DNA of 40,781 nucleotides, taken from positions 1-40,781 of the forward strand of contig JAGLSL010000012.1 of the NCBI GenBank assembly GCA_023135785.1. Direction: 5' to 3'. Source of the stretch: a bacterium. Its GTDB lineage: Bacteria > CAIJMQ01. Shown in pieces: positions 37,714-40,710 of this stretch. Each line of letters begins with the position of its first letter. Positions within the stretch are counted from its first letter, which is position 1. The notes under the pieces were generated by a model. The model was not told the DNA's origin and made no database searches. It saw only the letters and a list, made by a program, of their open reading frames with translations. The position numbers and the translations under genes were made by a program.

Positions 37714-37798
37714 CTCCGTTAGAAGTCTGTATCACATTTACCTCTGCTAACAAGGGATTACAAGCATTTCGATTGTGCTGGGATTACTTCTAGCGGGG
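37714..37798. repeat. Degenerate copy of the CCCCGTTAGAGAT-ended element
   Basis: CTCCGTTAGAAGT (37714-37726) and ACTTCTAGCGGGG (37786-37798) form imperfect terminal inverted repeats (11 of 13) related to those of the prepilin element. The right end supplies the last codons (P-R) and the TAG stop of the C39-DUF1573 gene. Confidence 0.6.
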
Positions 37799-39199
37799 TT
37801 TTACCAAACCATAAACAGGGATTTCTATTTTAGGTTGAGTAAGGTTGTTGGTGTAGATAGTTATGTTTCCTTTTATGCTACCTACCGGTGCATTATCCTT
37901 TAGAGTAGCAGTTATTTCATATTCCTTGCCTTCGACCTTAGGATTTATGGCTACTGAAACAAACTGCAGAGAACTTTCTATTTTCTCTATCTTCAAAGGT
38001 TCCTTGCTTGTTGTGAATATAGTTACTTTGCACGAAGATGTTTCTTCTCGCTTTACAAACCCAAAAAAGAACATATCAGGACGCAGTTCTATATCACCTT
38101 TGATATTTCCCGTAACGGAAATTTCTATTTTGGGGTGTTTTTTATCATCAGTATATATAATCAGCTTCCCCTTGAATTCACCAATAGGAATATCAGGACT
38201 AATATTAACCTTCACCTCCCAACCTTCATAATTTTCATTTGTACTCTTATAAAAGTTGGTATAAAGATAATCAGAAGAGGACTCTATTTTAATAATTTTT
38301 AGTTCTCTATCTTCAGGTCCGATAATATAGAACTTCCTGATTGCCACAGCTTCTTTTTTAACATATCCAAAATCAATATTTTTACGTGAGACATGAAGTT
38401 CTCTCTTAATTGTTCCTTTTACTTGAAGTATGACTACTGGAGTTACCGGGTCATTACAATAAACATGTATACCATAATTTTGCTCGCCTGTTCTACCCCT
38501 AATATTAACAGTTGCTTTTATCTCGCCTTCCCCTTGAGGCGGAATGTTTTTTTCTGAAAGAAGGGTAGCATTTGCCCCACAGCATGCTTTCACCTTGGAA
38601 ATTATTAAATCTTCCTTGCCTGCATTTTTGAATTTAAAAATATAGTTTAATGTATTATTCTTCGACTGTTCAATTACATCAAAATTATAAATATAAACAT
38701 CAAATCTTATATCCGGTTTTTTTGTCTCTATTTTAGGAAGTGGAATTTTACCTTTGGAAATTAAAAGAGAAAAGCCGGAATAAGTATCAGTAAAATCTTT
38801 TTTGGATACCAAACGAGGTTCTTTGGGTGGGTCTATTATTCTTAGATTACCTCCTTCAAACCCATCTATTACAAGACAATGATTGTTCCGGAGATAAGCA
38901 ATTATGGGTATCTTTAGCTTAGCAATGTCATCAAGACTTAGCTTCATTCCTACTGCATAGAGCCCTTTTGCTTCTGCTGCTTTAGCAAGTCCAGCCATTG
39001 TTGTGCCTTTTTTATCGTCATAGTCAGATAGTTTTTTCAGTTCATCAAGATTAGTTTCCACTCCTAATTTTTGACAGACCACTAAAAGACTATTAGGACC
39101 ACAGAGAAGGTCTGATTTAACTTCGGCTTGAGCTGAAAGGAAGGAGAAAGAAATTAAAAATAACAAAAAAATTATTAAGAGAAATGATTTTATTTTCAC
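37790..39199 (-). CDS. Exported C39-like peptidase fused to DUF1573 repeats
   Basis: With a GTG start at 39199 (469 residues), the protein has a signal peptide (about 1-25, ending LSAQA). A C39-type papain fold follows, with Cys33 in LLCGPNSL, His107 in NNHCLVIDGF and Asp123 in IIDPP, all intact. After about residue 160 come DUF1573/Ig-like beta modules, the first with the K-A-C-C-G motif, then at least two more repeats ending in INIYTNN-type strands. C39 peptidases cut leaders after double-glycine motifs, usually as ABC-transporter domains; here there is no transporter and the protease is exported. A longer start at 39301 would add about 34 residues with no signal character and cross a C9 run, so I prefer the GTG although no Shine-Dalgarno is visible. 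It is last in a three-gene operon. Confidence 0.85.
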   Translation of the reverse strand: MKIKSFLLIIFLLFLISFSFLSAQAEVKSDLLCGPNSLLVVCQKLGVETNLDELKKLSDYDDKKGTTMAGLAKAAEAKGLYAVGMKLSLDDIAKLKIPIIAYLRNNHCLVIDGFEGGNLRIIDPPKEPRLVSKKDFTDTYSGFSLLISKGKIPLPKIETKKPDIRFDVYIYNFDVIEQSKNNTLNYIFKFKNAGKEDLIISKVKACCGANATLLSEKNIPPQGEGEIKATVNIRGRTGEQNYGIHVYCNDPVTPVVILQVKGTIKRELHVSRKNIDFGYVKKEAVAIRKFYIIGPEDRELKIIKIESSSDYLYTNFYKSTNENYEGWEVKVNISPDIPIGEFKGKLIIYTDDKKHPKIEISVTGNIKGDIELRPDMFFFGFVKREETSSCKVTIFTTSKEPLKIEKIESSLQFVSVAINPKVEGKEYEITATLKDNAPVGSIKGNITIYTNNLTQPKIEIPVYGLVKPR

Positions 39200-39260
39200 A
39201 ATATTTATATAAGAAGAACTACTATCTGGAGCCCCCCCCCTGCGTCTTTGTCGGCGGATA

Positions 39261-40175
39261 TTAAGGACAAGGCTCTCCACCAGAGCAAGGTTCTCCACCA
39301 ATCTCTATTGCCTTGTCTTGTATTTCATCCCAAACAGTTACGCCTTCTTTCCATTTAAGATGAAAGAAATCATCAGGAATACCTGTGTTTATTTCTACAC
39401 TCTTTTCATCGACTATCAAAATATACTGTGCTCCTTTAACAGGATGGATTTCTCCTGGGCGACCAATTCCTTTTATAGGGAACCAAATACCATCTGCAAA
39501 TTGCTTTAATTCAATTGAATCACAGGATACTATTACTCCTTTTTCGGGCATAAACACCTCAAATTTTAGAGGGCTAAAACCTCTACTAGTATCAATCCAA
39601 ACTTTGTATTTAACAGATGTTCGGCTAGGTCTGGTTTCCCCTTCCACAACATAGCACTCATGTCCGTTGACTTTTCCTTTTCCTAATATTTCAGCAGTTC
39701 CGTTAAGCAGAACTTCGTCCCAATATAACGGTTCGGTGGAAATAGTAAAAACCAAACACTTGGGAGTAAGGATACCTCTTGGGAATTCATTACCTAGCAT
39801 TATTCTTCCTGAACCAGGGTCATCCTTTTTATTTGGATGATACCAACTTGTAGCTACTTCCCCATCATAAGCAAATGTTTCTTCAAGAGTTGCATCATCT
39901 TCATATAGGGTTTTCGACCATGAAAATTCTTTCTCACCTTTAAGCGCCCAGTTAAATTCTTTAGTATCTTTTTGTGTTCCGTATTCAGGCTTTTTGCCAA
40001 GGTCAGTTTCAATTCTATAATTTAATTTAATGTCCTTTATTAGAGAGCGATGGTATTTCATCCCCATAGCAATATCATTGACAGTAACAACATCTTCCGC
40101 TACTATACTGGGAGCAAAAAGAATCACCACCACCACCCAAAAAATAGATACCTTTATACTCTGAAATTTTGACAT
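39261..40175 (-). CDS. Exported LolA/RseB-fold-like protein
   Basis: The 304-residue protein has a signal peptide (about 1-26, ending SIVAED) and a long antiparallel-beta body with the pattern of LolA/RseB-like half-barrels. Visible parts are NYRIETDL, the WSKTLYEDDATLEETFAYDGEVATSW block, the VNGHECYVVEGE hairpin, the KYKVWIDTSRGFSPLKFEV strand pair and a final DDFFHLKW. Proteins of this fold bind lipid or acyl chains in the periplasm. The C-terminus ends with a tandem GGEPC duplication (two Cys). It lies between the Cys-rich precursor and the C39 protease on one strand with gaps of about 60 nt. Confidence 0.7.
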   Translation of the reverse strand: MSKFQSIKVSIFWVVVVILFAPSIVAEDVVTVNDIAMGMKYHRSLIKDIKLNYRIETDLGKKPEYGTQKDTKEFNWALKGEKEFSWSKTLYEDDATLEETFAYDGEVATSWYHPNKKDDPGSGRIMLGNEFPRGILTPKCLVFTISTEPLYWDEVLLNGTAEILGKGKVNGHECYVVEGETRPSRTSVKYKVWIDTSRGFSPLKFEVFMPEKGVIVSCDSIELKQFADGIWFPIKGIGRPGEIHPVKGAQYILIVDEKSVEINTGIPDDFFHLKWKEGVTVWDEIQDKAIEIGGEPCSGGEPCP

Positions 40176-40233
40176 TTTATCCCGTCTTTCCTGTTACTTT
40201 AATGGTTCCTTAACTTCTCCAATATTTTATGTC

Positions 40234-40710
40234 TTAGCTGCATGTAGAAAGATAACCACAACTACCGCTATAGTTGGGGTATGAACAACCACCTCCTTCA
40301 CACATTCCTACTGTCCTATCCCCACATGAGATAAAGGCACCATACGAGCATGTATCTTCTGGACAGTATGATAAACTAAAAACACAACTTCTGCCCGAGC
40401 CAGAAGTTGGGCAATAGACACATTGTTGTCCTTCATTTTCCAAAGCAGTCCCATACTCTGAAACTGCTGGCCAAGAGCAAAACACTTCGGCACTGACCGA
40501 AGATGTACACCTTTGTCCATCTGGCCGACACCTTGTACCGCCTATATTACACTCCTCCCAAGGGTTACACTGAATGCATCCAGCTTTGACTAGGCTCATC
40601 TCCTTAACAGATAAAATGCCAGCGTTTAGAGTTGTAATTTTACTTAAATACAAACCCAATCCCAGAAGCAACACTACGGCTAACAAACTAACTATCATTA
40701 GCTTCTTCAT
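40234..40710 (-). CDS. Cysteine-rich secreted precursor with double-glycine-like leader
   Basis: The 158-residue protein has an N-terminal membrane segment (about 3-22). A leader follows, ending L-S-V-K-E-M-S-L-V-K-A-G at 33-44, which matches the double-glycine leader pattern LSxxE(L/M)xx(I/V)x(G/A)G position by position. The rest, from Cys45, holds all 16 cysteines, many Gly/Ser and few charged residues (GCIQCNPWEEC, CVYCPTSGSGRSC, MCEGGGCSYPNYSGSC). The layout resembles NVEALA-type precursors of Bacteroidota. AAGGAGG precedes the ATG. It is first in an operon with a LolA-like protein and an exported C39-like peptidase. I do not recognise a named family. Confidence 0.8.
   Translation of the reverse strand: MKKLMIVSLLAVVLLLGLGLYLSKITTLNAGILSVKEMSLVKAGCIQCNPWEECNIGGTRCRPDGQRCTSSVSAEVFCSWPAVSEYGTALENEGQQCVYCPTSGSGRSCVFSLSYCPEDTCSYGAFISCGDRTVGMCEGGGCSYPNYSGSCGYLSTCS

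Follow-up and report, generated by a model that had tools for sequence, protein, structure and literature searches.

Peptides with a double-glycine leader are taken to be exported by ABC transporters, and genome mining for such peptides is directed at that transporter. In the PCAT/AMS proteins (PCAT1, LahT, ComA), the C39 peptidase domain is cytosolic and is fused to the peptide-exporting ABC transporter. LahT requires hydrophobic residues at leader positions -12, -7, and -4 and needs no more of the leader than its final 13 residues (PMC6363468); C39 proteases accept GG, GA, and GS (PMC6363468, PMC10885120). The use of C39 peptidases in the periplasm is not unprecedented, given that FapD of the Pseudomonas Fap amyloid system is a periplasmic C39 peptidase with a Sec signal and is needed for secretion (PMC5557850). 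The target of FapD was reported to be unclear, and the Fap proteins lack a canonical C39 sequence (PMC5557850). Three other groups of proteins invite comparison: the DUF1573/OS_HP2 (seleno)proteins (PF07610, NF041425), whose family models contain no C39 domain and whose function is unknown (PMC9312934); the PA2778 family (NF033920) of stand-alone, C39-like exported peptidases with TPR repeats; and the Bacteroidales GG precursors (TIGR04149) and NVEALA proteins, which are short precursors with a GG-type leader.

We identified three genes that combine features of these systems at one end of the window, by which we mean the whole stretch of 40,781 nucleotides that was analysed. A check of open reading frames confirmed them as real genes on the minus strand, running from 40710 to 37790. 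They encode a precursor of 158 amino acids with 16 cysteines (40234..40710), an exported LolA-like protein of 304 amino acids (39261..40175), and an exported C39-DUF1573 protease of 469 amino acids with a GTG start (37790..39199). The gaps are 58 bp between the precursor and LolA-like genes and 61 bp between the LolA-like and C39-DUF1573 genes. Both partners begin with signal segments, and the two exported proteins expected on the strand of the precursor are indeed there. The contig ends with the window, which leaves 71 bp upstream of the precursor ATG. Downstream on the same strand are genes resembling, by sequence, those for Fmt (fmt), an alcohol dehydrogenase, HisG (hisG), and a TPR protein.

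The start of the protease gene required some attention. The TTG at 39301 chosen by the ORF caller was dropped because it overlaps the LolA-like gene. Translation probably begins at the GTG at 39199, and the protein then has a predicted signal peptide of 25 residues (residues 1-25, 39125..39199), with a helix at residues 3-25 in the structural model. There is no Shine-Dalgarno sequence before this GTG, which leaves the start or the coupling of the gene uncertain. A run of nine C occurs at 39232-39240, between the LolA-like stop codon and the GTG.

The precursor has a strong Shine-Dalgarno sequence (AAGGAGG) upstream of its ATG. Its N-terminus starts with Lys-Lys, followed by a hydrophobic signal or transmembrane segment of 19 residues (residues 4-22, 40645..40701), a layout that recurs in relatives. 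The block LSVKEMSLVKAG (residues 33-44, 40579..40614), aligned with 21 other leaders, directly precedes the first cysteine, and the predicted Cys-rich core with all 16 cysteines follows (residues 45-158, 40237..40578). The sequence therefore confirms the original prediction in its description of a 158-residue precursor with an N-terminal membrane segment and a leader directly before the first of 16 cysteines. With Leu at -12, Met at -7, Val at -4, Ala at -2, and Gly at -1, the block has the hydrophobic residues required at -12, -7, and -4, and cleavage is predicted after Gly44. The AG ending is uncommon among the precursors compared, as Ala occurs at -2 in just 2 of 22 and Gly in the other 20. 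The precursor had no match beyond chance in Pfam or NCBIfam, and the TIGR04149 and NVEALA models did not recognize it; the relative in genome G234 (L139) matched TIGR04149 weakly (14.4 bits, cut-off 25). The likeness to NVEALA precursors proposed earlier thus holds for the layout only, as no such family model was matched.

All 22 precursors share the signal or transmembrane segment and a block of 13 residues, with Leu or Ile at -12 and Met, Ile, or Leu at -7 in every one. Together with Gly or Ala at -2, this pattern fits the positions that are recognized in double-glycine leaders. Near many of the Poribacteria proteases the block takes the form L-S-x-x-E/Q-M-x-x-L-x-G-G. Mean identity among the 22 (some leader boundaries were placed by eye) was 37% in the leader and 27% in the core, compared with 26% for shuffled cores. 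The leader is therefore conserved while the core varies, as had been anticipated, and the cores have no similarity beyond composition. Of 21 full-length precursors, 18 have an even number of core cysteines (binomial p 7e-4, a value that ignores relatedness). In many relatives the hydrophobic segment is separated from the leader by a signal-peptidase-like site, read from sequence (VRA/D in L095 and YAA/D in L088, for example), which fits a pre-pro-peptide. The window precursor has no clear signal-peptidase site by sequence. One further precursor, with a core of 36 cysteines (L103:2044-2709), is found next to a C39 protein that stands alone and lacks DUF1573.

When the window precursor was used in a plain sequence search, neither its own genome nor 60 relatives gave a convincing match. 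The plain search fails because the cores do not align, and only a profile of the leader works. With a leader profile built from 20 precursors without that of the window, the window ORF was the top match in the 40 kb (E 1.2e-5, scaled to 1000 sequences) and the next ORF had an E of 1.2; since this profile is independent of the window, chance is a poor explanation for the leader. A profile of nine precursors had matched the window ORF weakly (E 0.52 among 3847 ORFs). In Poribacteria the leader profile found seven new precursors (E up to 0.013), each adjoining a LolA-like gene wherever sequence exists, with the C39 gene not always adjacent. The profile gave no convincing further lineage in 386 diverse genomes.

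The leader profile also allowed us to ask where precursors occur. They were present at 12 of 15 testable loci with an intact C39-DUF1573 gene and were absent from all 43 control loci with DUF1573 only (0/16 among the long ones) and from all three loci with a dead C39 domain. The association with intact C39 has a Fisher p of 5e-10; restricting the controls to the 16 long ones gives 3e-6. Because the compared loci are related, both values overstate independence and serve as a guide only. Two intact loci (L041 and L096) had no precursor recognized by the leader profile, and the precursor at L138 was a weak match (E 0.27). The original prediction held that precursors should not regularly occur without a C39-like protein nearby. 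This stands at the level of the genome, in that the only genomes with a precursor and no C39 gene (the Poribacteria G128 and G143) have damaged loci: G128 has a stop codon in the signal segment of its precursor and a split LolA gene, and the C39 domain of G143 breaks off some 25 residues in. A point against it is that the precursors of G101, G147, and G102 are beside a LolA-like gene and not beside a C39 gene. Several C39 genes are present elsewhere in the genomes of G101 and G147, and G102 has a fragment only.

The protease has a C39 peptidase domain (residues 33-150, 38750..39103) that scored 75.4 bits on PF03412 (cut-off 22), and its Cys33, His107, and Asp123 align with the known catalytic positions. 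Across 17 aligned copies the Cys and His never vary, and 15 of the copies keep the Asp. The exported C39 protein does have the intact triad that was claimed for it. Among solved structures, the C39 profile best matched the PCAT1, ComA, and LahT peptidases, and the inactive HlyB domain scored far lower. An AlphaFold2 model made from two sequences had a mean pLDDT of 58.5, with the C39 part at about 70-91. In this model, the C39 part is predicted to adopt the papain-like C39 fold. When it is superposed on the structure of LahT bound to a leader peptide (6mpz), the rmsd is 2.0 A over 121 columns and the TM-score to the target is 0.77. Classical C39 proteases have a Gln before the catalytic Cys, and the aligned copies do not conserve it. 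In the LahT structure, the distance between that Gln and the intermediate is too great for the residue to count as clearly essential (PMC6363468).

The remainder of the protease consists of DUF1573 repeats, with three stretches matching PF07610 (99 bits). The first Ig-like domain (38411..38707) has a Cys206-Cys207 pair, which is Cys-x-Cys in relatives and Sec-x-Cys (UxC) in two Poribacteria (G045 and G130). In this first domain with its redox-type pair, the protein resembles the DUF1573/OS_HP2 family, although it scored below the NF041425 cut-off (77.8 bits, cut-off 100). Further DUF1573 or Ig-like repeats (37796..38410) appear as strands in the low-confidence part of the model. The G218 protein (L138:9681-12347) continues into a segment containing CxxC and a multi-helix membrane part; this extension looks thioredoxin- and CcdA-like by eye, and family searches gave no confirmation.

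The window protease shares with the PCAT/AMS domains the predicted fold, the Cys-His-Asp residues, and the -12/-7/-4 leader pattern, with AG at the end of the window leader beside the GG, GA, or GS of that class, but it is exported, is fused to DUF1573, and is paired with a substrate that has its own signal segment. It resembles FapD in being an exported C39 peptidase with no ABC transporter. FapD, however, has neither DUF1573 nor a LolA-like partner, and its operon encodes amyloid subunits together with a pore in the outer membrane. On the FapD model NF058616, the window protease scored only 13.3 bits (cut-off 330). The 1.34-Mb genome from which the window comes is 96% complete and contains two C39 matches, the C39-DUF1573 protease and a PA2778-type protein, neither of which is in an ABC transporter. 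No C39-ABC transporter or fusion was found in this genome, and the protease ends in DUF1573 repeats, in agreement with the earlier proposal of a system without an ABC transporter. There is also no VKOR gene in this genome. The PA2778 relative (L012:6386-8080 on contig C30) is a C39-like peptidase with TPR repeats that scored 103.6 bits on NF033920 (cut-off 150); the PA2778 family belongs to a different C39 branch, with TPR in place of DUF1573 and no LolA-like partner. Its gene adjoins those of two paralogous membrane peptides of 66 amino acids, each with GGG between two hydrophobic segments, and together with these peptides the peptidase may form another pairing of exported protease and peptide.

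These results suggest, with a probability of roughly 70%, that the operon matures a pre-pro-peptide whose leader is removed outside the inner membrane by the exported C39 protease. The Cys-rich precursor would enter the Sec pathway through its N-terminal hydrophobic segment, which would be retained as an anchor or, in many relatives, cut at the signal-peptidase-like site. Beyond the inner membrane, the C39 protease would read the hydrophobic leader residues at -12, -7, and -4 and cut after Gly44, releasing a peptide that is predicted to be disulfide-rich. The LolA-like protein may bind or carry the precursor or its product in the periplasm, and the DUF1573 part, with its redox-type Cys pair, may help to fold the core or dock the carrier. 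We infer that the product would also be exported across the outer membrane. Recurrence, the leader, the triad, and co-occurrence all support the earlier proposal, in which the exported protease would free the Cys-rich core outside the inner membrane.

The C39-DUF1573 protein could instead be an exported chaperone or docking protein that binds the leader, like the inactive C39-like domains of type I secretion systems, with cleavage minor or absent. The lack of conservation of the oxyanion Gln and the loss of the Cys in three relatives (L094, L086, and L087) would fit such a role, which we nevertheless consider unlikely, given that the Cys and His are invariant and the Asp nearly so in 17 copies and that the domain is closest to active leader proteases, with HlyB much lower. 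The original prediction had named loss of the active Cys/His in relatives as a refutation, and the copies that lost the Cys have no precursor beside them. Slightly less probable still is that the product is a Cys-rich protein anchored in the membrane or displayed on the surface, with the block as a linker and another target for the C39-DUF1573 protein. The absence of a clear signal-peptidase site in the window precursor and the existence of a 301-residue relative with only 4 Cys (L102) agree with this explanation, but it does not account for a block that is kept across lineages at the spacing read by C39 proteases while the cores share nothing, or for the strong association with intact C39.

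Two more conventional explanations are much less probable than these. The AGC at residues 43-45 and the LolA-like neighbor might indicate a lipoprotein, with the AGC as lipobox, Cys45 lipidated, and the LolA-like protein performing ordinary sorting. This is very improbable, as there is a Lys at -3, about 20 residues separate the hydrophobic stretch from Cys45, the sequence does not conform to a lipobox, and nearly all relatives have no Cys directly after the block. It is at least as hard to sustain, and in our estimate the most improbable of all, that a C39-ABC transporter encoded elsewhere exports the precursor as a classical double-glycine peptide and cuts it in the cytosol, the neighbors being unrelated. 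Its leader block does fit the double-glycine class, but the nearly complete genome has no such transporter, the precursor has an N-terminal hydrophobic segment, and the linkage to exported partners recurs.

A C39-DUF1573 profile matched in 22 of 85 Poribacteria genomes, and many of the matches have short proteins around them in which a hydrophobic N-terminus is followed by a leader and a Cys-rich core. The Poribacteria precursor gene is followed by a LolA-like gene and then the protease gene, or by a LolA-C39-DUF1573 fusion. Among about 386 genomes (approximately one per family), the full architecture was found in the window's genome, in two Poribacteria, and in G218 and G234, which represent two further families outside the Poribacteria and have the precursor and LolA-like genes beside or close to the protease gene. 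The set is therefore present in at least three phyla. A contig scan with the C39-DUF1573 pair matched a Poribacteria copy only, and the wider reach comes from profile searches of the genome set; through these, the three-gene set that the original prediction proposed to look for was found to recur in unrelated lineages. In a genome of the same genus (G001), the order of the TPR, hisG, dehydrogenase, and fmt genes matches that of the window. Near this conserved order (L034:8235-10124) is a LolA-like domain fused in frame to DUF1573 repeats, without C39 and without a precursor, so that the protease and the precursor are missing together.

The combination of C39-DUF1573 protease, LolA-like protein, and precursor seems to be undescribed. 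Literature searches found no published description of the gene set, and Pfam and NCBIfam have no curated families describing the precursors. Somewhat less firmly than the maturation itself, we think it probable that these genes represent an undescribed class of Sec-dependent pre-pro-peptides, with a signal segment, a double-glycine leader, a variable disulfide-rich core, an exported C39-DUF1573 protease, and a LolA-like carrier, joined in some lineages by a selenocysteine or thioredoxin-like redox module and an STT3/PMT glycosyltransferase. If an exported protease can also remove leaders from precursors that leave by the Sec pathway, then a whole class of disulfide-rich secreted peptides has gone unnoticed, in this case in uncultured bacteria, Poribacteria among them. 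Such a class would provide substrates with leaders for periplasmic C39 proteases, which are little understood, and would give DUF1573 its first testable context.

The most constant neighbor of the precursors is the LolA-like protein, which is fused to the protease in some relatives. The window protein narrowly exceeded the PF17131 cut-off (30.7 bits, cut-off 30) and matched a profile of precursor-linked carriers built without it at an E of 3e-31, and we predict that it is a carrier or chaperone. The Poribacteria clusters also carry genes for STT3/PMT glycosyltransferases, FGE-sulfatase domain proteins, and ECF sigma factors. STT3/PMT genes adjoin the protease or carrier gene at L084:2803-4806, L091:4545-5207, L102:8337-10979, L093:5289-7070, and L176:2672-4417, and the product may be glycosylated. 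The G234 cluster has a BlaI/BlaR1-like regulator pair between the protease and precursor genes (L139:8920-13727).
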